A DNA stretch of 20,957 nucleotides, from positions 1-20,957 of IMG/VR virus record IMGVR_UViG_3300035172_000015. One strand, written 5' to 3'. Below, piece after piece: positions 7,764-20,957 of this stretch. The stretch's first letter is position 1, and the number at the start of each line of letters is the position of its first letter. A program made the translations under genes and the position numbers. This DNA is from a virus. The notes under the pieces are model-generated. The model had not been told where the DNA came from and ran no database searches. It was given only the letters and a program-made list of their open reading frames with translations.

Positions 7764-8113
7764 TACATGCTCCGAAGACGATTCTGCATATCCCAGTATG
7801 GATGTCCAATACCGATATTGGATTCGATACCACCGTGGTCTTTAAGAATCTCTTGGATGTCCGCTAGCAATGCATCCTTGAGTTCCTTAAGCTTGTGCTG
7901 CTTAGGAGTAAGCAATACTTCCTTATGAACAACAGGTGCAGCCGGTGGTGCAGCAAGTCGTTCAGCAGCAGCTTTAGCCTCAGTAACATGCAAAGGTTCA
8001 ATCTCTCCACTCTTGAGTTCGGGTTCCTTTGCTGGTTCTGCAAAAGGTGGAACATACGGAGGATTGGAAACCTTCTTCTCGTCGTCCAATGGATTGTGAG
8101 TGTAATCAGTCAT
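7763..8113 (-). CDS. Small Ala/Pro-rich, charged protein (116 aa)
   Basis: The start chosen is the ATG at 8113, eight bases inside the end of the enzyme gene, preceded by GGTGGAAAG at good spacing. The frame is open to 8203, but that would overlap the enzyme by about 98 nt with no better ribosome site. The product starts MTDYTHNPLDDEKKV and continues with a Pro/Ala/Glu-rich unstructured part (residues 18-62). It ends in a lysine-rich helix near 70-90 (KQHKLKELKDALLADIQEIL) and a short C-terminal tail. It looks like a linker or assembly protein rather than an enzyme. I recognise no family. Confidence 0.7.
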   Translation of the reverse strand: MTDYTHNPLDDEKKVSNPPYVPPFAEPAKEPELKSGEIEPLHVTEAKAAAERLAAPPAAPVVHKEVLLTPKQHKLKELKDALLADIQEILKDHGGIESNIGIGHPYWDMQNRLRSM

Positions 8114-9302
8114 TTTCTTTCCACCAAATTGTGTCAACGTGGTTAACTTCGCCGAATCTTTCATCCACAGCCTTAACAACACCAGGCCACACCTTTGAAT
8201 CATAGTCGTGACCCGCTATGATTTTAGGGTTCATTGACATTGATTTCTCAATATCAAGTTTTACTGACTCATAATCATGTGCTGCATCAATAAAAATAAA
8301 ATCGGGCTGGAAACCGTTAGGCACATACTTCTGATAATCCATTCTATATGGAATTACTTTACCACTATCAATATGCTCTTTTAGATTCTTCTCAAAATCG
8401 GCGTAGGTGTCATCACTAGTCTTGTAAATTACCCTACCATCATTAGAGTGAACAATTGAATTCCAGGTATCAATGCAGATAAGTTTACCTTTAGTATTGT
8501 CAGCCATAACTCTAGCTGACTTACCTTTATAAGAACCAACCTCAAATAGGTACTCGTGATTCTTAGCTACAATGCCAAGAAACTCCAATTCCTTATCTGA
8601 CATCCATCCTTCAATCCGCTTCGCCATATCAACGTCAGCGGCTGGATAGGAGATAGGAAATTGACAATTACCTTTACCTCTAACATCGTAATTGATAGCC
8701 CAAACACCATCAACTTTACGATATCCAACATTGACCGTCATCATATGGTCAACAAGTACGTTGGTATCGCAGTACATCTTGATGCCTGCATCTCCAACCT
8801 TATTGAAGAATGCAATGTCATCACACCAACCATCAGATTCCAGTTCGCCAAGTGTAATCCAAGGCTTAGGAACCTTATTGAATACGTCCATCTTAATGAG
8901 AACGCATCCCAATCCACAGTTAGTAATTTCTACCAGACCGTCAACATCTCCGTTAAGATGGACATGCCTGTTAAATCCGTTGGGAAACCTCTTATCAAAT
9001 GCTACTGGAAAATGAGGAAAGTCCCGCATAGCATAAAGACCAGTTACTACGTCTTTATCATGCGCTAGCAATCGGTTAATGATATCCGGCTGAGGAATGA
9101 CATCATCATCTAGAAAGAAGATGTGAGTACAGTCATTATCAATTGCAGCCTGGATAATCATATTCCTGCCACGAGCCGGTGATTGGCCTCGTGCAAACAT
9201 ATGTAGAGTGCCTTCTGGTCTATCTAAGGCATTATAATAGTCATAGAAATTAGCGTGTCTTGCACCTTCGGCTGTAGGAACACCAACTAAAACTTTTGCC
9301 AT
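8106..9302 (-). CDS. Glycosyltransferase (GT-A)-methyltransferase fusion protein
   Basis: Two enzyme domains lie in one 398-residue chain. Residues 1-225 are a GT-A glycosyltransferase: MAKVLVGVPTAEG at the start, SPARGRNMIIQAAI (41-54), the metal/nucleotide-sugar motif FFLDDD (62-67), GWCDDIAFF (158-165) and a later DH (185-186), a typical metal-ligand position. Residues 235-398 are a class I SAM-dependent methyltransferase: FEVGSYKGKSARV (253-265, SAM loop), ICIDTW (275-280), FIFIDAAHDYESV (335-347) and AGHDY (363-367). It probably adds and methylates a sugar on a virion protein or polysaccharide, though the substrate is unknown. There is no SD before the ATG; the gap upstream holds two hairpins. 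Its placement between capsid and tail genes suggests virion modification. Confidence 0.85.
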   Translation of the reverse strand: MAKVLVGVPTAEGARHANFYDYYNALDRPEGTLHMFARGQSPARGRNMIIQAAIDNDCTHIFFLDDDVIPQPDIINRLLAHDKDVVTGLYAMRDFPHFPVAFDKRFPNGFNRHVHLNGDVDGLVEITNCGLGCVLIKMDVFNKVPKPWITLGELESDGWCDDIAFFNKVGDAGIKMYCDTNVLVDHMMTVNVGYRKVDGVWAINYDVRGKGNCQFPISYPAADVDMAKRIEGWMSDKELEFLGIVAKNHEYLFEVGSYKGKSARVMADNTKGKLICIDTWNSIVHSNDGRVIYKTSDDTYADFEKNLKEHIDSGKVIPYRMDYQKYVPNGFQPDFIFIDAAHDYESVKLDIEKSMSMNPKIIAGHDYDSKVWPGVVKAVDERFGEVNHVDTIWWKEND

Positions 9303-10247: not shown

Positions 10248-11495
10248 TTAGTACCCCGATGGAACGGCTAGCGTGTCAATGAATGAACAGCCAGCAGGGT
10301 TGTTAACAAACGTCTGAGTGCCAATAACCATGTAGAAGATTTCGGCAGTAGCGACACCACCGGAAGCTCCACGGATTTCAAAGATGTTACGGCCATCAGT
10401 AGTATAGAATCCAAGTGGGAGAATTTCACCACGACCCCACACAGAATCAGTAACGAAATCAATACGGGTTTTATCCCAATTGAATGAGCACTTAACAGGA
10501 GCACCAGCCATCTGCATCCCATCAAAGTAAACATTCAAGCTCTCATCAGACGGCTTCTTGAAGATAGTGGACATAAGCTGTCCAATTTCCTCATAAGCTG
10601 CCTTTTGAGCAGGATGCATCCATGCAGCAGGAGCGAAGTCATTGTCAATACCAATACGATTGCCAATCTTGTTAATGGCAAGGCGTGGCAGAGGCAATGT
10701 CAATGCAGCAGAAGCCGCGTTCACTCGATTTGCACGAATTTCAGGAGTGATAGCACGGCTAAAGCCAAGCCAAGTGCCAGTGGAAGCATTGCTGTGGTGA
10801 TATGGAACACCAAACAGAGCGGGCAATGCAGTAGGAGCACTGATACCGTTGGTAACAATAAAGTCACCACCAGTCACACCAGCAATCTGGGGAGTGATGT
10901 TGATAGTCTTGTTTTCAACGTCCCAGAAGGTAATAACTCCGCTGCCCCTGTTAGTAGCAAGAGTGGAATTGAATACCTGTACAGTCTGACCAAAACGCAT
11001 CAGACGAGCACCAAATCCATCAGTGGTCATAACAACAACGTTGCTACCACCGGCAGGAGTATCAGTAGTAACAGTGCCAATGACACCGTTACCAGCTTGC
11101 ATCATCTGAGCATCAAGCTGACGGCGAAGCTCATCCAATGCTGTAGCAGTAAGACGACGAACACCGTTGACAATAGACTTCCTATCATCATCGGTAGCCC
11201 ACTGTGCCAGCTTGGTGTATTCGATGTTCTCGGAAACGAATACGCAGCTAAGAACCGCCTTATCAAACGACGGCCCACCGCCACGACCCAAATCTCCGCC
11301 ATCAGGATTGAAATACTGAAAAGAACCACCGGGACGCAGTTCAAGAGGAACTCGCATCTGACGGTTGGAAATCTTCTCAACATCCCGCTTCTGAATGTTA
11401 GCGAAGAACTTGTCATCTCGCTCAAAGAGTGTCCGAATCTTCGGAATTACTCTTTCAAGCTCAAGTGCAGTAACCTGAGATTCAACTAGTGCCAT
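10248..11495 (-). CDS. Major capsid protein
   Basis: This 415-residue protein starts MALVESQVTALELERVIPKI after GAGGA. It has the usual features of a phage major capsid protein: an N-terminal helical arm; a long stretch with DKAVLSCVFVSENIEYTKLAQ and the helix LTATALDELRRQLDAQMMQAGNG (96-139); a central domain with VVVMTTDGFGARLMRFGQTV; a PAAWMHPAQKAAYEEI segment (about 289-304); and a C-terminal part with NWDKTRIDFV and RNIFEIRG. It lies directly downstream of the scaffold gene, as in most tailed phages, and is followed by decoration-type proteins. The HK97 fold is inferred; no cleaved prohead segment is evident in this gene. Confidence 0.85.
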   Translation of the reverse strand: MALVESQVTALELERVIPKIRTLFERDDKFFANIQKRDVEKISNRQMRVPLELRPGGSFQYFNPDGGDLGRGGGPSFDKAVLSCVFVSENIEYTKLAQWATDDDRKSIVNGVRRLTATALDELRRQLDAQMMQAGNGVIGTVTTDTPAGGSNVVVMTTDGFGARLMRFGQTVQVFNSTLATNRGSGVITFWDVENKTINITPQIAGVTGGDFIVTNGISAPTALPALFGVPYHHSNASTGTWLGFSRAITPEIRANRVNAASAALTLPLPRLAINKIGNRIGIDNDFAPAAWMHPAQKAAYEEIGQLMSTIFKKPSDESLNVYFDGMQMAGAPVKCSFNWDKTRIDFVTDSVWGRGEILPLGFYTTDGRNIFEIRGASGGVATAEIFYMVIGTQTFVNNPAGCSFIDTLAVPSGY

Positions 11496-11505
11496 GTTAA
11501 TGTCC

Positions 11506-12798
11506 TCAATCTCGCATCAAATAGTCTAAAGTGCTAGTCCCTTTTGGGATAGACCTAGCTTGGTCCTTTACCGTCTTTCCACTTTGAGGGGAGGTGGATT
11601 GACTCCGTGCTTTTCCAACAGGTAAAGGTCCACGTTTATCTTTCTTATCAGTATCTTCATCATCATCTCGAACTCTCTTACCGAGTCCTTTCAATGCTTC
11701 GTTACGTGCTTTCTTGATAATAGCTGGCAGTAGAGTCTTTGCCTTGGACGTGTAGGCAGATTTAATTCTGTCCATTGACTCTGTGCTAAAATCATCACTA
11801 AATGCTTTTTCCCAAAGCTTATCTAAAACAGCTCTAAATCGGCTATCAGCGGCGATAGCGTTCTCAAGATTATCGAATGCTTCACGAGTAGCATTCTTCT
11901 TAACATAATCAGTCATCGACCCATTGGGGTCAATATTCTTATCGATAGTAGCTTTCAGAACATTCTCTGTCTTACTAGTAACAGTGTCCTTAGCCGTGTC
12001 AAACTGACGTTGCTGAAATGCACGTTCACGTTCAGCTACTTCATCAGTTGCAGGATTCTTCGTGTCAGTAGAAAGCTTTTGCGGTGGAGTGAATGTTTTG
12101 GTGCCAAAGATATACTGATTAAGTACATCAGCGGCTCCAAGCAAATCCTCTACACCATTATCTCTTCCATCCTTAACCATAGTCATAATGGTATGCTTAA
12201 TGACATTACCGATAGTGTGATAATAAGCAGCTTCATTAACCTTGTAAAGTGTTGGAAGATAATTATCAATTACCTTGTCAAACGAATTCTTATCTGTGTT
12301 GAGAACAGCATTCAACAGGCTCTCAGTTGAGCCTTCCATGATTTCATTCTCATAAGTATCCAGCCGTTCAGATTTCTCGACAGCGGCTTTAGCATCTGCA
12401 ATCGTAGGAAGCAACTCAGTAAATGCCTTCTCACGATAGATAGATGATTCAAGTCCTGGAAAATCCTTAAAGATTTCAGGATACTTAGCTAGAATTTCCT
12501 TACGGCGGAGAGGAACAACCAGTTCCAGCCTATCTTCATCTGGCTCTGCAAGTTCTTCCTCAATCTCATCTTCTAAAGAGAGTTCTTTCTCTTCTTTAGT
12601 TTCTTCTTCGTCTTCTTTATCAGTTTCTTTAGAAGCCTTTTTCGCAGGCTTTTCCAGTTCAATAGTTTCTTGTTCTGGCTCGTCTTCACCAAGTAATTCA
12701 ATGACATCTTCTCTGCTCAGAGATTTATCTTCAATTGGACCAGTAGCCGTATCAACAGGAGCAAAGAACGGAATCAGATTAAGCTTGTGCAGAAACAT
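11506..12798 (-). CDS. Scaffold protein, highly acidic N-terminus and basic C-terminus
   Basis: Two ATGs are available, at 12804 and 12798. I choose 12798 because GGAG lies seven bases upstream, while for 12804 it is only one base away. Either way the gene begins inside the last codons of the portal gene. After a short head, residues 20-90 are strongly acidic with runs of Glu/Asp and Lys (DEPEQETIELEKPAKK; ETDKEDEEETKEEKELSLED). A long helical middle (110-340) follows, then a basic end (GKRVRDDDEDTDKKDKRG and GKARSQSTSPQSGK). Acidic helical body plus basic C-terminus is the classic layout of scaffolds that bind the capsid shell. No protease motif is seen. Confidence 0.75.
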   Translation of the reverse strand: MFLHKLNLIPFFAPVDTATGPIEDKSLSREDVIELLGEDEPEQETIELEKPAKKASKETDKEDEEETKEEKELSLEDEIEEELAEPDEDRLELVVPLRRKEILAKYPEIFKDFPGLESSIYREKAFTELLPTIADAKAAVEKSERLDTYENEIMEGSTESLLNAVLNTDKNSFDKVIDNYLPTLYKVNEAAYYHTIGNVIKHTIMTMVKDGRDNGVEDLLGAADVLNQYIFGTKTFTPPQKLSTDTKNPATDEVAERERAFQQRQFDTAKDTVTSKTENVLKATIDKNIDPNGSMTDYVKKNATREAFDNLENAIAADSRFRAVLDKLWEKAFSDDFSTESMDRIKSAYTSKAKTLLPAIIKKARNEALKGLGKRVRDDDEDTDKKDKRGPLPVGKARSQSTSPQSGKTVKDQARSIPKGTSTLDYLMRD

Positions 12799-15495: not shown

Positions 15496-15944
15496 CACTT
15501 AGCCTCCTCAATACCGAGTTCTTCTTCCAGTGCTTTAATACTATCTTCTGTAGATACATCAGGAATAACTACTGATAGACCACCACTCTCACCTCGTGGA
15601 ACAGCTTTAGCAACAGCGGCTTTAGCAAGAGCCTCATCATTCCTTCTCTGCTCTTCAATGACTTGAAACTTCTTTCTATCCTCAGCCTCAAGCATCTGCT
15701 TACGAACAGCCCAAGGAATAGAATGAGGTCTAATACTTTGTGGTGGCTGCTGTACAACTGGTTCAGCAGGCTGAGATGGTTTAATTAGAGCATCAAGCAT
15801 TTGCTTGCGCTCATAATTAGCAATCTCAAGCTGCATCTTAAGTGTTTCACAGGACTTGCAAATTAATGCATTCTCCTGCATTTCAAGCTTTTGGCGCTTG
15901 AACTGATATCTAATTGATAGATATTCTTGTAACCAGTTAAACAT
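15495..15944 (-). CDS. Helical protein between terminase and portal (149 aa)
   Basis: The ATG overlaps the terminase TAA by one base. Residues 1-60 are a long helix with a CKSC pair (YQFKRQKLEMQENALICKSC, then ETLKMQLEIANYERKQML), likely a coiled coil. A Pro/Gln linker (57-72) leads to a motif PWAVRKQMLEAEDRKK (77-92), then an Ala/Arg-rich helix and an acidic tail (EDSIKALEEELGIEEAK). I recall the CxxC + ExxNYER + PWxxRKQMLEAEDR combination in proteins next to portal genes of environmental phages, with no assigned function. It may bridge terminase and portal. That is inference from location. Confidence 0.75.
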   Translation of the reverse strand: MFNWLQEYLSIRYQFKRQKLEMQENALICKSCETLKMQLEIANYERKQMLDALIKPSQPAEPVVQQPPQSIRPHSIPWAVRKQMLEAEDRKKFQVIEEQRRNDEALAKAAVAKAVPRGESGGLSVVIPDVSTEDSIKALEEELGIEEAK

Positions 15945-17560
15945 TAGTGTCTCGCATGATGAAATTTACGAATTGGTTTGTATGGGTCGCCAGATTCAGC
16001 CGTTCGCATTTGACGATAGAATCCAGTCCAGTCACCATCAGCACTTAACTTGTGAATTAAATCTTCCTGCTTTTGGATTCTCTTAAACTCATCACCAGCA
16101 ATTTCAAAATAGTTCTCTGCCCCATCGACCAAATAGCGTAGGCCGTCAATAGGGTCGTCACCTGAAAATGCCGCAATGTCTTCAATTTTCTTCTTATCGT
16201 AAGAGCAAGCTTTGATTGCGTCAATCAACATCTTGCATGAACTGAAAATTTGTAGCTTAGGGATATTGGTTTCTGGTTCAGGTTCAACCAGTGAATTCAT
16301 ATACGATTTATATTCGTCCATACTTCTGTTACGAAGAAGCCACATTGAATGCTCTTCGTTATAGACAGGACGTTCTTTAAGTACAGTAGGTCTAGGCTTC
16401 CATCTCATATACTCATGAATAAGCTGTTTGCCTGAGATGCGGCTTCCAGGTGAATTAGTAGTCAGTTCAATCTGTATTCCAAGAGCCTCACTGATTTGCT
16501 CTTGGATTGTATGCTCCTGTCCAACTTCGTTACCGGCTGATTTACAGAACTTAACCAGTCTAGGCTTATCAATTTCAATCAGCTCTTTAACAACTGGCGA
16601 CCATTCTGAAATCTTAGTCTTTACCCACCATTGTTCACGATAGATATAAAGACGTTTAGATGGACTAATTGCTCCCCATCCAATCCATGTCATAGCCGCA
16701 AATCCCCAGTCACCAATTACTATTCTAGGCCACCAAGCGGGGATTTCAAATTCATCAATTACATGTAGAGCATTCTCTGGTTCATCAGGATAAGCTCTGT
16801 CTCTGAATTCATCAAATACTTGACCAGAATAAGAATCCCAATCTCCGTAGAGTTTGGCTCGTTTCTCTGCTTCTGGTAATGCTTCAAGAGACTGTCTATA
16901 TCCTGGGTCAATGTGTGGGTTATCTGCTAACGTAGCATGAATATAAATTCTCTTGACTCCACCTCGACCAACAATAATAGTTCCTGGCGGAGCCGGTAAT
17001 ACAAATCGTTTGTTAACAAATGTATGCCCAACTCCACCAGGCATACCAGCCGCACGAATTATGGCCGGTAGTTCCTTGATAGAAGTACGTACACGAGTGA
17101 ACCCAACATACAAATAAATAAACTCAAGAAAAGAAGTAAGCTCATCGGGAGTAAAGAGATTGATTTCCATTGAATCATATTTGTGAACATCGTTTTCATC
17201 TTCACATTGACCAAGGAAAATCATTGCACCAGCATTGGTCATTCCTCTCCCGCCAAATTGGTCAGGAGCCGGAAACGTCCATGCCATATCTGATTTATTT
17301 AATGTAGCACCAAATTTAGGATATAACTGTCTAGAGCGAGGAATAACTTCGTTCCTCAACTCAGGAAATGTTCTACGCATGAATACTTGTTTGAATCCAG
17401 GATGCTTATGCCATCCATGAACTAAAGCGTAAATTAATAGAACGTCTGTCTTTGCGCTACCTGCACCACCACCGTATAAGGCTTCTTTAATTGAGAGTGG
17501 TAAGGATAGAAACCTCTCTTGCTTCTTTGTAGGTTTCCATTCCTTACCAGTGAAAGCCAC
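15944..17560 (-). CDS. terL: Terminase large subunit
   Basis: This 538-residue protein is the DNA-packaging motor. The start is GTG (TAGTG overlap with the upstream stop), with AAGG upstream. The N-terminal ATPase has Walker A ALYGGGAGSAKTD (27-39) and an adenine-binding KPTKKQERFL segment before it. The Walker B-like region is INLFTPDEL (133-141), where D139-E140 are the likely catalytic pair. The C-terminal nuclease half shows GDWGF (283-287, D284) and SGDDPIDGLRYL (466-477, with D468, D469 and D472), consistent with the RuvC/RNase H-type metal site. Residues 203-222 contain the YIHATLADNPHID packaging-motor signature, in part. Function and family are secure from these motifs. Confidence 0.95.
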   Translation of the reverse strand: MAFTGKEWKPTKKQERFLSLPLSIKEALYGGGAGSAKTDVLLIYALVHGWHKHPGFKQVFMRRTFPELRNEVIPRSRQLYPKFGATLNKSDMAWTFPAPDQFGGRGMTNAGAMIFLGQCEDENDVHKYDSMEINLFTPDELTSFLEFIYLYVGFTRVRTSIKELPAIIRAAGMPGGVGHTFVNKRFVLPAPPGTIIVGRGGVKRIYIHATLADNPHIDPGYRQSLEALPEAEKRAKLYGDWDSYSGQVFDEFRDRAYPDEPENALHVIDEFEIPAWWPRIVIGDWGFAAMTWIGWGAISPSKRLYIYREQWWVKTKISEWSPVVKELIEIDKPRLVKFCKSAGNEVGQEHTIQEQISEALGIQIELTTNSPGSRISGKQLIHEYMRWKPRPTVLKERPVYNEEHSMWLLRNRSMDEYKSYMNSLVEPEPETNIPKLQIFSSCKMLIDAIKACSYDKKKIEDIAAFSGDDPIDGLRYLVDGAENYFEIAGDEFKRIQKQEDLIHKLSADGDWTGFYRQMRTAESGDPYKPIRKFHHARH

Positions 17561-17784
17561 TAAACCTTACAAGCAAGCAGTGCATTAGTCGTGGTGCAAC
17601 GTACAAATACAGCGGTGCAATCAGCACCAGTAGTTGAGTTTGCTAGCGTTGCCCACGTAGAACCGTCAAGAGAGATTTCAATAGCCGCTGATGCCATTAC
17701 CCTTACTTGCCTAGCCGGTAATGCAAACGCAACGTTCTGCGTTAGCGTCTCAATTGGACCAATCTTAACCTGAGTAGTTGCCAT
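17560..17784 (-). CDS. Small beta-type protein paralogous to the C-terminus of its neighbour (74 aa)
   Basis: The ATG follows GAGG-TTCTA. The stop shares a base with the terminase start. The sequence (VKIGPIETLTQNVAFALPAR, then SAAIEISLDGSTWATL and ADCTAVFVRCTTTN) aligns by eye with residues 207-275 of the 290-aa protein immediately upstream: both have GPI, FAxPAR, a SLDGS/SLDNG strand and an F-xR or xxIR end. It is therefore probably a stand-alone copy of that C-terminal module. Small beta-sandwich folds of this kind often decorate virions. Its function and whether it is in the virion are unknown. Confidence 0.7.
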   Translation of the reverse strand: MATTQVKIGPIETLTQNVAFALPARQVRVMASAAIEISLDGSTWATLANSTTGADCTAVFVRCTTTNALLACKV

Positions 17785-18656
17785 TAGAACCTCGATTTAG
17801 TCTTCCTGAAAACGACTGTAATATCGGCAGATGGCCTAATGCAAGATGCAACGACACCAGCTACTGTTCTTAAGCCTGCACCTGGAGCTGTATCTATTGT
17901 AACAAAGTTATCTCCGTTATCAAGAGAAGCTTCTAGAATAGCTGCACCTGTAGTGGAGTATTCAATGTTGATAGCTCTAGCAGGCATAGCAAAGATAGTA
18001 TTGCCCGGTATCACGAATGCTGAGCCAATGGGACCAACTACCTTATTACCTGGGTTGGGTCCAATCAACTGCATTATGTGATAAATTGCAGCTCCTGAAC
18101 CGCCTGTATTTGTAGTTCCACTAAACAATCCAGCCGGGCTAATTACTGTGTTACTATCGAAAATGGAGGGGACGTTGACTGAGGTTGAATAGCTACCACG
18201 ATAGGTTAGGTTGGCACCGGCTGTTGGCGCCCCGCCAAAAGCATAGGCAGCTTGTGCAAATACAGCAAGACATTTATTAACACTTGAAGTTATAGAACTT
18301 GTAAAGGTTGTAGCAGCATTTGCAGATTGTGCAGTAGCTAATTCAAATAATCCAATTGGTTGATTGGGATGTTTGTACGAAGCTGAAATACAAACAACTG
18401 AACCAAGAGGAAATGTAACAGCGTTTGCACCAAGTAGGGGATTCTGAACTACATATAAATTAATAAAACCAAATGAGCTAATCGATGGGTCAGCAGCAAA
18501 CGACATCGATTTGAGAAGAGCCGCCCGAACTCCATTAACGAATGGAACCGTATCTCCACGAGTAACAAGAAAAAGAATTCGATTGTTACCCGCACACGTA
18601 TGGGTATAGAATGAACCACCACCGTCAACGAATGCATCAAGAGTAATATCAGCCAT
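17784..18656 (-). CDS. Beta-sandwich virion-type protein, possible adhesin (290 aa)
   Basis: It starts MADITLDAFVDGGGSFYTH with no clear SD in the few bases before the ATG. Residues 15-200 follow a pattern I associate with extracellular beta-sandwich proteins: CAGNNRILFLVTRGD, FVNGVRAALLKS, a central FINLYVVQNPLLGANAV (nP-GA-V signature) and SVNKCLAVFAQAAYAFGG. Residues 207-290 form a second module shared with the 74-aa protein (GPIGSAFVIPGNTIFAMPAR, given in part). Two modules in one chain and no catalytic residues suggest a binding or decoration protein. Its place between a packaging-region gene and the terminase is unusual for such a protein. Confidence 0.7.
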   Translation of the reverse strand: MADITLDAFVDGGGSFYTHTCAGNNRILFLVTRGDTVPFVNGVRAALLKSMSFAADPSISSFGFINLYVVQNPLLGANAVTFPLGSVVCISASYKHPNQPIGLFELATAQSANAATTFTSSITSSVNKCLAVFAQAAYAFGGAPTAGANLTYRGSYSTSVNVPSIFDSNTVISPAGLFSGTTNTGGSGAAIYHIMQLIGPNPGNKVVGPIGSAFVIPGNTIFAMPARAINIEYSTTGAAILEASLDNGDNFVTIDTAPGAGLRTVAGVVASCIRPSADITVVFRKTKSRF

Positions 18657-18662
18657 TGGAGA

Positions 18663-19079
18663 CTAATCAGTCATCTCAACAATGTTGAATGTATCTTCCG
18701 ATACAATCTGTGGTGCATAAATAATAATCTGAGCCGCTTGCACAGCCGGCATGTTTCTGTTCTCTACTGAGTCATATACCTTGCTCATATCAGCAATGAC
18801 TTTAGAAAGCTTATCCGGCTTACCAATCTCAGGAAGTTTCTCTTTGAGTTCGTCAAGTGCTGAACTCATAATGCCTAAAGCTTTACCTTTGATGGAACCA
18901 ATGGTAATCTTCTTCTCTATATCTTCAATAACTTCATCAGCAGATGGAGGCAAAGCCGGAATGTTAATAACCGGCAATGAAGATGTCCTATCACGAGACG
19001 TAGTGATGGTCTTGAGTCTATTCAGAAGATTAGAAGGAGACTCAATTCTCCTTTTCAGTTCCTCATCTTCTATTAGCAT
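18663..19079 (-). CDS. Putative small terminase-region protein (138 aa)
   Basis: The ATG has AAGGA upstream, and overlaps the end of the 67-aa frame by seven bases. The protein is helical and charged: EDEELKRRIESPSNLLNRLK, then PPSADEVIEDIEKKITIG, a conserved-looking SIKGKALGIMSSALDELKE, and DKLSKVIADMSKVYDSVE, ending in an AAQIIIYAPQIV strand. It is the most upstream secure gene of the late operon and precedes the terminase large subunit by two genes. This is the position expected for a small terminase, and the helical size would fit. No helix-turn-helix can be shown by eye, so the call is tentative. Confidence 0.5.
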   Translation of the reverse strand: MLIEDEELKRRIESPSNLLNRLKTITTSRDRTSSLPVINIPALPPSADEVIEDIEKKITIGSIKGKALGIMSSALDELKEKLPEIGKPDKLSKVIADMSKVYDSVENRNMPAVQAAQIIIYAPQIVSEDTFNIVEMTD

Positions 19080-19276
19080 TTCAAATCCTTCAGTAAATCT
19101 ATTAGAGATTGCCCGTAGGCGCGTAGTATACCGGGCTTCGCCCGAAAAGTCAAGAAGAAAATCGGCTGTTTTTGTTGAGAATTTGCTTGGAAGGTGATGA
19201 AAATTTCACTATTTGAATGATTCACGATTTCGATATGATGGAACCATTCAGGAATGAGTTGGTATTGGACTGACAA
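19073..19276 (-). CDS. Possible small protein, TTG start (67 aa)
   Basis: This open frame starts at a TTG two codons after an in-frame stop and ends inside the start of the 138-aa gene (7-nt overlap). It has no ATG and no good SD. The sequence looks protein-like rather than random: EWFHHIEIVNHSNSEIFITF, then PIFFLTFRAKPGILRAYGQS and LIDLLKDLK. Hydrophobic and charged residues alternate as in a small alpha-beta fold. It could be the first gene of the late operon. Without database support, and with a weak start, it should be treated as uncertain. Confidence 0.45.
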   Translation of the reverse strand: MSVQYQLIPEWFHHIEIVNHSNSEIFITFQANSQQKQPIFFLTFRAKPGILRAYGQSLIDLLKDLKC

Positions 19277-19345
19277 ACACTAGATTAATATCCGGCAAGG
19301 GTGTGCAGATATGGAACCTTACGTGCAGGTATATGCACCCCTGTA

Positions 19346-19365
19346 AAGGTACTCTAAGGTACTCT
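19346..19365. repeat. Tandem 10-bp direct repeat in control region
   Basis: AAGGTACTCT occurs twice head-to-tail with no spacer. The 10-bp period puts both copies on the same face of the helix. It lies next to the GTGCA/TGCAC dyad at 19323-19338 and within about 70-90 bases of the start of the late operon. A binding site for a regulator of the leftward promoter is a reasonable inference. Confidence 0.5.
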
Positions 19366-19636
19366 ATGATATGACTTAGTGGTATTCTTTGGTGATGTAT
19401 TGACGATTGACGTACTTTAACTACCCTTTGTCCCATAAAGCGAAACCCATCCACAACCTATTGGGGTTACACAAACTGTGATACACCAGTAATAGATAGT
19501 CAGCCAATCTGAGGCGAAAGTTTACATTAGTCTGCCTCACAGATACCACGACCACAAGATGTAGTGATACACAGTTTTGCAATACTAGGTATTGTGGTGT
19601 TTTGCTGGCATTCCTGATGCAGTTCTACTGTTCGAC

Positions 19637-19678
19637 GGTCGCGGCTAGCAGGTAGCACGAATGCTACCATGCCGGACC
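19637..19678. ncRNA. Long imperfect hairpin, candidate structured RNA element
   Basis: Fourteen pairs can be drawn in a 42-nt span: GGTC with GACC, a single bulged G, CGGC with GCCG, an asymmetric internal loop (tagca opposite at), then a perfect GGTAGC with GCTACC closing a six-base loop (acgaat). All helix pairs are Watson-Crick, so the stem is stable on either strand. It is not followed by a T-run and does not look like an intrinsic terminator. It lies mid-way in the divergent control region, upstream of the three stem-enclosed ORFs. Whether it is transcribed is unknown. Confidence 0.4.
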
Positions 19679-19937
19679 TCTGAACGGAGTGCTATGCTGT
19701 AGGTTTGACTACTCACCATTGGCTTACTGTTGCCAATTGTGTCTATCCTTTGATTAGGCCGTGCCGTATTCGATGCTATGCTGAGGTATAGCAGAGCCAT
19801 GCTAGGCTTGCACGCGTGACACGTAAAAACACGGCCCGATAAGCGCGGGTTGATAATGCCTACATAGTTGGGCGCACGCTGTTGGCTACCTTATGGGAGT
19901 CTGCATCCTTGAGCAGAGTTACCTAGCATGGGTAGTA

Positions 19938-20261
19938 GAATATAGGGTTTAGTAGGCTTGCCTAGCATGGGAGTTACCATGAAGCGCCAAATGAGTAAGA
20001 CGCCAGCAACCTACATGGAATCGCAATGGACGTATAGAAAAGGTCCAATTGAGAACGTAAGGTATGACCCGGAATTGAGAACACAGCACGCAAGGGCATA
20101 CGTGAACGTAGCACGATACAACGGTATTCAGCTACGGCGGAAGATTCGGCTAGCGAGTCAGCAGCCAATGACTCCGATACTGCGTAAGAAAGCGCCGTCA
20201 TTCACCAACAATCCTACCACAGTCTAGCATCAGCTAGGCAAGCGTATTAAATCCTATATTC
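19938..20261 (+). repeat. Cassette 1: inverted-repeat arms enclosing an 82-codon ORF
   Basis: The 5' arm at 19938-19966 is complementary to the 3' arm at 20233-20261 over 29 positions. I count 26 Watson-Crick pairs, two G-U pairs (G in the 5' arm) and one G-G mismatch. The mismatch lies 11 pairs from the inner end. The inner ends sit immediately outside the SD (GGGAG, 19969-19973) and the stop codon (20225-20227). Local alternatives exist: TAGGC-tt-GCCTA (19953-19964) and CTAGC-atca-GCTAG (20224-20237), which compete with the long stem. Confidence 0.85.
19979..20227 (+). CDS. Small basic protein of cassette 1 (82 aa)
   Basis: I choose the ATG at 19979 because GGGAG lies five bases upstream; an upstream in-frame ATG at 19958 falls inside the 5' arm and lacks a ribosome site. 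The product is basic and polar, with many Arg, Gln and Tyr: MKRQMSKTPATYMESQWTYR, then VRYDPELRTQHARAYVNVAR and a C-terminal LRRKIRLASQQPMTPILRKK. It has no cysteine, membrane or catalytic motif. Small basic proteins of this sort in phage early regions often act on host machinery, but nothing here shows that. No family is recognised. The ORF lies wholly between the two arms of cassette 1. Confidence 0.7.
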   Translation: MKRQMSKTPATYMESQWTYRKGPIENVRYDPELRTQHARAYVNVARYNGIQLRRKIRLASQQPMTPILRKKAPSFTNNPTTV

Positions 20262-20275
20262 GTAATATAAAACAA

Positions 20276-20291
20276 CCAAGTAAATACTTGG
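20276..20291. promoter_or_regulatory. CCAAGTA-aa-TACTTGG dyad before cassette 2
   Basis: Seven-base arms flank a two-base centre, partly overlapping the 5' arm of cassette 2. A second dyad, TATATT-cgt-AATATA, lies just upstream at 20255-20269, overlapping the 3' arm of cassette 1. The AT-rich interval between the cassettes (20262-20279) is the only spacer there and could carry a promoter or operator. No clear -35/-10 pair is visible. Confidence 0.35.
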
Positions 20292-20655
20292 GTTCTGTAG
20301 AGCCTATCAACATTCAACTAACGGAGAATGTATGAATAGCAAGCAACTCAATCGTATTCAGTTGTCCCTCTACAAAACGATTGTCGTCATGTTTCAGACT
20401 CTGTGCGTTACGCCGTCTGATGCAATCCCTGTTCTCCGTGCCATTGCTGACGATGCTGAGTTCTTCATCAAAGCAAAGGCGCAGGGAATGACGACCGAGG
20501 AAGCTGTTGAAGCTCGCTCAAATGATGAGATGAGCATCGGCAAGAGCAAGATGAGCGAATCACAGGAAGTGAAGATGCTCGAAAACATGCTCAATCTCGA
20601 CTCTATCAATTAAACTCAAATCAGTTGATAGGTTCCACAGAATCCAAGTATTTAT
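20280..20655 (+). repeat. Cassette 2: inverted-repeat arms enclosing a 93-codon ORF
   Basis: The 5' arm at 20280-20311 pairs with the 3' arm at 20624-20655 over 32 positions: 28 Watson-Crick pairs, three G-U pairs and one A-C mismatch. The mismatch lies 12 pairs from the inner end. The SD (CGGAG, 20322-20326) and stop (20611-20613) lie just inside. An alternative pairing exists: CTATCAA at the very end of the ORF (20603-20609) can pair with TTGATAG (20625-20631) of the 3' arm. Confidence 0.85.
20332..20613 (+). CDS. Small helical protein of cassette 2 (93 aa)
   Basis: The ATG is preceded by CGGAG at five bases. The protein is helical and fairly acidic: MNSKQLNRIQLSLYKTIVVM, then TPSDAIPVLRAIADDAEFFI, AKAQGMTTEEAVEARSND and a Met/Glu/Lys-rich end (SESQEVKMLENMLNLDS). 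It has one cysteine and no membrane segment. It is unrelated by eye to the proteins of the flanking cassettes. I recognise no family. The ORF sits precisely between the arms of cassette 2, and its last codons can pair with the 3' arm. Confidence 0.75.
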   Translation: MNSKQLNRIQLSLYKTIVVMFQTLCVTPSDAIPVLRAIADDAEFFIKAKAQGMTTEEAVEARSNDEMSIGKSKMSESQEVKMLENMLNLDSIN

Positions 20656-20683
20656 AGGATTGGTTGCATGGCTTGGTAGGTTG

Positions 20684-20696
20684 CCAGCTTCGCTGG
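20684..20696 (+). promoter_or_regulatory. Local hairpin overlapping the SD of cassette 3
   Basis: CCAGC-ttc-GCTGG forms a five-pair hairpin. Its 3' strand includes the first two G residues of the SD (GGAG at 20695-20698), and its 5' strand is part of the 5' arm. It therefore competes with the long-range stem: pairing of the arms would free the SD, while the local hairpin would hide it. Confidence 0.5.
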
Positions 20697-20703
20697 AGAT
20701 ACC

Positions 20704-20889
20704 ATGAAAGCATATGTTACGCTGTCAGGTTCTATGGTCGCTGTCGCAACTACTGAAGATAAAGCACTTCAGCAAGTAAACTCTATGTTGAATGCTGCAT
20801 CAGAAACTCTAGTATTCAAGGCTAGAGAGTTTGGTGAGCACAAAATGAGTGTCGCCATTCGCGTTTGCAACGTCGAAGTAAATCAGTAA
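20704..20889 (+). CDS. Small protein of cassette 3 (61 aa)
   Basis: The ATG follows GGAG at five bases. The product starts MKAYVTLSGSMVAVATTEDK and continues ALQQVNSMLNAASETLVFKA, REFGEHKMSVAIRVCNVEVNQ (in parts). The alternation suggests a compact beta-alpha-beta fold: strand 2-8, strand 11-16, helix 18-33, strands near 36-41 and 48-58. There is no signal peptide or membrane helix and only one cysteine. It is a small, probably cytoplasmic early protein with no recognised family, and it is unlike the proteins of cassettes 1 and 2. Confidence 0.75.
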   Translation: MKAYVTLSGSMVAVATTEDKALQQVNSMLNAASETLVFKAREFGEHKMSVAIRVCNVEVNQ

Positions 20890-20890
20890 A

Positions 20891-20902
20891 CTCGTTAACG
20901 AG
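20891..20902. repeat. Perfect 12-bp palindrome after cassette 3 ORF
   Basis: CTCGTTAACGAG is a perfect palindrome two bases after the stop codon of the 61-codon ORF. It overlaps the first two bases of the 3' arm of cassette 3. It could be a protein-binding site or a small hairpin that helps position the arm. No T-run follows, so it is not an intrinsic terminator. Confidence 0.5.
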
Positions 20903-20957
20903 CTGGCAACGTATCAAGCTATGCAGCTAATCCATTGGTAATGTAAGCACAATCGAG

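Follow-up and report, generated by a model that had tools for sequence, protein, structure and literature searches.

Long covarying helices around the first early cistrons of uncultivated tailed phages resemble rRNA leader-trailer stems and are likely cut by host RNase III

Why would the first early genes of a phage each lie between two sequences that can pair with one another across the gene? The question is raised by the right end of IMGVR_UViG_3300035172_000015, an uncultivated tailed-phage fragment of 20,957 nt, the whole of which is called the window here. Its minus strand carries the terminase, portal and head genes, and three small plus-strand ORFs occupy that end. An earlier note on this DNA had described each of the three as enclosed in its own long complementary stem. 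The features of the locus are as follows (window positions).

15944-17560, minus strand: terminase large subunit, the anchor for finding relatives; the early operon diverges from it
19455-19937, plus strand: leader ahead of the first stem, without a convincing plus-strand ORF and with no detected boxA-like sequence
19938-19966, plus strand: 5' arm of cassette 1 (26 Watson-Crick and 2 G-U of 29 pairs)
19979-20227, plus strand: cassette 1 ORF, 82 aa, no assigned function (start 12 nt after the arm, SD GGAG between)
20233-20261, plus strand: 3' arm of cassette 1, 5 nt past the stop codon
20280-20311, plus strand: 5' arm of cassette 2 (pairing extendable outward to 20270)
20332-20613, plus strand: cassette 2 ORF, 93 aa, no assigned function (from the ORF list)
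20624-20655, plus strand: 3' arm of cassette 2 (inverted-repeat search and stem score)
20657-20690, plus strand: 5' arm of cassette 3, abutting the preceding 3' arm of cassette 2
20704-20889, plus strand: cassette 3 ORF, 61 aa, no assigned function (from the ORF list)
20900-20933, plus strand: 3' arm of cassette 3 (inverted-repeat search and stem score)
20938-20957, plus strand: first 20 nt of the 5' arm of cassette 4, the rest of which lies beyond the window end

An inverted-repeat search over all 20,957 nt returned exactly the three claimed arm pairs as the longest inverted repeats of the window, namely 19938-19966/20233-20261 (29 nt, 90%), 20270-20311/20624-20665 (42 nt, 81%, including the 32-nt core) and 20657-20689/20901-20933 (33 nt, 85%). 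With G-U pairs and bulges allowed the stems scored 24.8, 26.9 and 28.7, compared with a best score of 18.0 in 60 dinucleotide shuffles of the whole window. Furthermore, RNA folding of 19931-20945 gave -360.6 kcal/mol versus -274.3 ± 7.4 kcal/mol for 60 shuffles (z = -11.7), and the minimum-free-energy structure holds all three stems, with 28 of 29, 31 of 32 and 33 of 34 arm bases paired to the partner arm. The stems thus stand at the positions first reported, and the shuffled controls proposed in the earlier note do not reach equal arm complementarity. The arms had also been placed just outside the Shine-Dalgarno (SD) sequence and the stop codon, and this holds: the ORFs of cassettes 1 to 3 start 12, 20 and 13-14 nt past the 5' arm and stop 5-11 nt ahead of the 3' arm, with GGAG SD sequences just inside each stem. 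A scan of 17500-20957 against Rfam gave nothing beyond a single weak match below threshold, to a snoRNA family.

Relatives were collected through the terminase, yielding about 90 related contigs, among them the window's phage on a longer contig (G002, IMGVR_UViG_3300046809_000089). In G002 cassette 4 is whole, its arms (14207-14236/15200-15229) enclosing an ORF of 211-222 aa; this fourth stem comes directly after the third, and the later early genes are closely packed and carry no such stems. The search for flanked small early ORFs in related phages that the earlier note had suggested was rewarded by stem-enclosed cassettes with strongly covarying arms: 12 further phage genomes with a related terminase carry between one and six of them each. 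The cassette-bearing genomes fall into two clades in the stem scan: clade 1, the window's own, consists of the window/G002 and G010, and clade 2, whose terminases are about 40% identical to those of the window's clade, consists of G019, G020, G021, G022, G023, G025, G026, G027, G035, G036 and L081. The position of the cassettes is constant: they are the first genes of the early operon, downstream of the terminase and on the opposite strand, and they recur across many separate metagenome assemblies. Gene calls were mechanical, and the limits of some cassettes may be off by a few bases; a few cassettes contain two ORFs or one unclear ORF. In G021 the first cassette is found at both contig ends (625-1326 and 48288-48990), which suggests that the contig is terminally redundant or a circular assembly, about 47.7 kb in length.

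No such array was detected in ten close relatives for which at least part of the early region is available (G003, G004, G006, G007, G009, G012, G013, G015, G016 and G017), and INPHARED contained no relatives by portal protein, early-region DNA or the 199-aa cassette protein. A pattern scan for the core motif of the arms over viral contigs gave 13 stretches, two of which belong to the known array phage; L186 has long inverted repeats of another kind, nearly all Watson-Crick paired, and the remaining stretches revealed no cassettes. A host search by terminase in GTDB genomes gave best matches of only 31-34% identity. In the literature covered (open-licence PMC papers) we found no account of stem-enclosed cistron arrays.

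For the covariation analysis the arms were trimmed to their common core and joined by an artificial GAAA linker. Among 24 non-redundant cassettes 93.7% of the cells were paired and double-sided changes occurred in 24 of the 25 pairs. The covariation score was 0.957; shuffles scored 0.260, and slid partners no more than 0.156. After a shift of the partner by a single column only 38-43% of the cells were still paired. Because the cassettes had been found by complementarity, covariation was recounted on eight cassettes whose sole selection criterion was a homologous enclosed protein of 180-230 aa, and there the score was 0.671 versus 0.287. In an arm-blind duplex test on ten homologs of this protein the gene's own downstream region was the best partner in nine. 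Consistently, when the 57 nt before each start codon were folded against the 60 nt after each stop codon, typical cassette genes gave -41 to -63 kcal/mol, compared with all-gene medians of -14 to -21 kcal/mol per contig, and -40 kcal/mol was reached by only 30 of 1,276 predicted genes. The same stem scan of T7, lambda and the first 50 kb of N4 gave no stem scoring above 18.1 and no comparable array.

The remaining mismatches indicate which strand is under selection. With arms delimited by Watson-Crick runs, the coding strand of the 24 cassettes carries 48 G-U and 11 A-C oppositions, G-U being in excess in 19 cassettes and A-C in none. The array list came in part from a G-U-favouring scan, and a symmetric scan recovers nearly the same cassettes. 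Since a DNA-level site would show no such bias, selection acts on the mRNA, and the formation of the stems as selected sense RNA is strongly supported. Pairing is also specific: cognate arms average -45.4 kcal/mol, non-cognate arms of the same array -14.2 kcal/mol.

As to the anatomy of the stems, the median distances are 19 nt from the 5' arm to the start codon and 11 nt from the stop codon to the 3' arm, and neighbouring cassettes overlap or nearly touch, most junctions measuring -4 to +7 nt. On the coding strand the junctions hold neither intrinsic terminators nor sigma-70 promoters. The earlier note had taken the arm sequences simply to differ between cassettes; this needs correction, as the arms form one family: they have in common a core, 5' TTGTGGGTTCnnTnGGTGGC plus its complement, and a weak spot in the middle. 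At the centre stands a U-A pair that hardly varies (23 U-A and one U-G of 24), with mismatches and G-U pairs clustered at the positions beside it. In a 33-position stem this centre is, by median, 17 positions away from the outer end and 14 from the inner one. Within one genome the arms of neighbouring cassettes mostly differ. Across genomes, G022, G027 and G020 have near-identical arms (25 of 25 and 23 of 25 core positions), yet the proteins inside, of 107, 73 and 66 aa, are unrelated; it is thus the slot, rather than the gene, to which the helix belongs. That the helices are cognate-specific and independent of the enclosed gene is accordingly supported. A two-bulge archaeal splice motif is not expected in these stems, because the arms pair almost without gaps. 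In G019 an alternative closure of one 5' arm is possible on sequence grounds: 34295-34344 can pair with 35004-35038 or with 35234-35265, past the first or the second ORF.

We propose that the array consists of rRNA-style leader-trailer helices around protein-coding cistrons, which are likely cut by host RNase III into end-sealed messages. The first early genes would be built as a row of stem-enclosed mini-messages on a polycistronic early transcript. Once an ORF is transcribed, its 5' arm would pair with its own 3' arm just beyond the stop codon, and the resulting leader-trailer helix of 25-45 bp would leave SD and start codon free in the loop; as neighbouring helices abut, hardly any single-stranded spacer would remain. 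In keeping with the use of leader-trailer helices in rRNA operons, host RNase III would then cut at or near the common central weak spot, and the freed mRNAs, both ends still base-paired together, would resist end-dependent decay. In seven relatives a boxA-type element before the first stem might in addition load a Nus-modified polymerase, as in rRNA operons. Of these steps, RNase III cleavage, end protection and polymerase modification by boxA are what we infer; cleavage by the host enzyme is favoured as the leading possibility because of the stem length, the common central weak spot, the early polycistronic context and the boxA elements. The RNase III must be assumed to be the host's, because none is recognisable among the proteins encoded by 30 phage contigs.

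The main rival to cleavage, to which we assign a small yet appreciable probability, is protection and insulation without cutting. Uncut stems would hold the two sides of a cistron together, leave little spacer for RNase E-type attack, block 3' exonucleases and insulate translation. Such a role would suit cassettes that mostly abut, so that unpaired spacer is nearly absent, and that keep SD and stop codon just inside the stem. Antideterminants are helix features able to block RNase III, and the central mismatches could act in this way, the weak spot hindering cleavage rather than directing it. However, plain protection needs no motif, whereas the common core, the near-invariant U-A pair and the mismatches at fixed positions point to recognition.

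The closest known system is that of the RNase III processing stalks of bacterial pre-rRNA, with boxA antitermination. In E. coli rRNA operons boxA is closely followed by boxC, the 5' arm of the leader-trailer helix, which overlaps the RNase III site, and models of the 16S and 23S pre-rRNA helices comprise 27-44 bp (PMC10250234), compared with 25-45 positions in the phages. In both, a long helix closes the whole unit, tandem units each have their own covarying helix, and compensatory changes conserve the flanking long-range helix, the mark by which an rRNA leader-trailer helix is recognised. Unlike rRNA, the phage units are translated ORFs of about 50-230 codons, up to six in number, and their arms are mutually orthogonal within an array. 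The resemblance to rRNA processing stalks noticed in the earlier note therefore stands, and it is strengthened by the boxA-like element found before the first helix in seven relatives.

This sequence is of the rRNA-operon type and occurs ahead of the first stem once per genome copy: exactly as GTTCTTTGACAACTGAAT in G019, G022 and G023, with one mismatch in G021 and G027, with two in G026 and with three in G025. It lies 4-8 nt from the stem in G019, G021 and G023 and 115-181 nt from it in G022, G026 and G027, and it overlaps the arm in G025; by chance 0.25 occurrences would be expected per 50 kb when up to three mismatches are allowed. For comparison, in several genomes of Bacillota, sequences with two to four mismatches to GTTCTTTGACAACTGAAT are mostly located 100-190 nt ahead of a 16S rRNA gene or else behind 16S, which is where boxA occurs in rRNA operons. 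A search for exact boxA in 149 Bacillota genomes gave three matches, none of them shown to precede rRNA. The feature is not general in the arrays, because near those of the window, G002, G010, G020, G035 and G036 the search yielded no boxA-like sequence, hence none in the window's own clade, a point of difference from rRNA operons; in the leader of the window no boxA was detected even when three mismatches were allowed in a 13-nt core.

Taken together, the analogy suggests that the array-bearing soil phages may treat their first messages as bacteria treat ribosomal RNA. The further idea that rRNA-operon logic as such was copied for mRNA, with a boxA-loaded polymerase, mutually orthogonal helices closing each message, gene-independent exchangeable slots and separate end-sealed mRNAs as the outcome, is offered tentatively and is rather doubtful as a whole. 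The ends of bacterial mRNAs are usually seen as set by promoters, terminators and local hairpins; with a long, orthogonal, covarying helix per protein-coding cistron, in part preceded by an rRNA-type boxA, a polycistronic transcript would be divided up in a distinct manner. Such an array would tie phage early expression to the rRNA processing pathway of the host. The arrays would moreover supply natural orthogonal RNA arms for uncoupled gene arrays, and their signature, an upstream region complementary to the downstream region, can be searched for gene by gene in other phages.

Two further RNase III systems share part of this layout. The early RNase III sites of T7 are likewise double-stranded elements at gene borders of an early polycistronic phage RNA, and the internal loop in the stem of R1.1 (PMC6121014) is comparable to the central weak spot of the arms. 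Unlike the phage stems, the T7 sites are local hairpins between genes and enclose none; the same scan found no ORF-enclosing stem in T7. Local intercistronic hairpins of the T7 type were rejected for the arrays, as adjoining arms of neighbouring cassettes pair weakly (mean -13.2 kcal/mol) compared with the -45.4 kcal/mol of cognate arms across the gene. In icaR of S. aureus the 5' and 3' UTR of one mRNA pair to form an RNase III substrate (PMC3868564), so that, as in the phages, sequences on either side of one coding region pair on the mRNA. There, however, a single gene is concerned, and the short pairing covers the SD sequence and represses translation, whereas the phage SD is free, the helix spans 25-45 positions and the units stand in tandem arrays.

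It is unlikely that the arms serve at the DNA level, as recombination or inversion sites by which genes are swapped or flipped. The near-identical arm pairs around unrelated genes in different phages would fit an exchange of genes between conserved arms, and invertible switches do have inverted repeats flanking a segment. However, such swaps are explicable by ordinary homologous recombination, the excess of G-U over A-C on the coding strand (48 versus 11) is unexpected for DNA sites, the assigned ORFs of all cassettes share one direction, and the arms are imperfect and differ within one genome. DNA-inversion switches, which have near-perfect inverted repeats free of strand bias in their mismatches and segments that occur in both orientations, were rejected on the same strand bias and single orientation. 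Integron gene cassettes, which have one folded attC per gene, do not match either, as here two arms pair across the gene and the junctions have no strong local hairpin. Insertion sequences, which have a transposase between similar ends, were discarded because no transposase occurs among the tested cassette proteins and neighbouring arms within one genome mostly differ.

The enclosed proteins gave no convincing PHROGs match, and none at all for the cassette 1 ORF, which by eye resembles ORFs of 48-57 aa in G010 and G003. The cassette 2 ORF is carried only by the near-identical G002 among 23 related contigs. Homologs of the cassette 4 ORF are stem-enclosed in G002 and G010. The earlier note had named relatives that keep the ORFs but not the complementarity as grounds for refutation, and the outcome is mixed: in the wider set stem and ORF mostly go together, while several close relatives, among them G003, G004 and G017 for the cassette 4 ORF, possess a homolog with no detectable stem. 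Homologous ORFs without stems are found in G003, G004, G017, G024 and others, and the stems are therefore not needed for the proteins to work; to judge from these sequences, genes may move in and out of slots.

Nearly all clade-2 genomes enclose in a stem a member of a divergent orphan protein family of 181-231 aa (for example L069:2527-3126, minus strand) with a basic N-terminal motif R-x-GKxxKG. Its predicted structure, a model of moderate quality, has four strands followed by helices. With this family in mind, the helix core may be pictured as a regulatory site bound by a phage or host protein, perhaps this clade-2 protein of about 200 aa, in a feedback on early expression. Both the common core of the arms and the presence of the 180-230 aa family with its basic RRGKAAKG stretch in most clade-2 arrays would fit; yet no homolog of the protein was detected in the window's own clade and its model matches no known fold, and we regard this reading as quite improbable. 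Chance complementarity or an assembly artefact is practically negligible as an explanation, being contradicted by the shuffles, the covariation, the recurrence in many metagenome assemblies and the lack of anything comparable in T7, lambda and the first 50 kb of N4.

Several other elements were observed. Among the structural genes of the window, 8106-9302 (minus strand) encodes a protein of 398 aa with a glycosyltransferase-like and a methyltransferase-like half. Four arrays, and no other part of the contigs searched, hold a conserved structured spacer between two cassettes. It is 101-115 nt long and folds into a covarying outer helix with two or three hairpins inside; the copy in G022 had no Rfam match.

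Structured spacer, oriented coordinates: G022 10998-11103; G027 33506-33620; G020 23389-23492; G036 12078-12178
Structured spacer, contig coordinates: L097:18904-19010; L120:14973-15081; L133:3389-3495; L159:5534-5641

Furthermore, inverted repeats that are imperfect, span about 400 nt and hold no convincing ORF occur close to the early region or beyond it.

Inverted repeats of about 400 nt, oriented coordinates: G003 28048-28471; G017 36437-36859; G019 35427-35836; G023 22585-23015; G026 614-1028

In several of them the G-U bias suggests that the opposite strand is transcribed, and a non-coding RNA or a terminator is possible.
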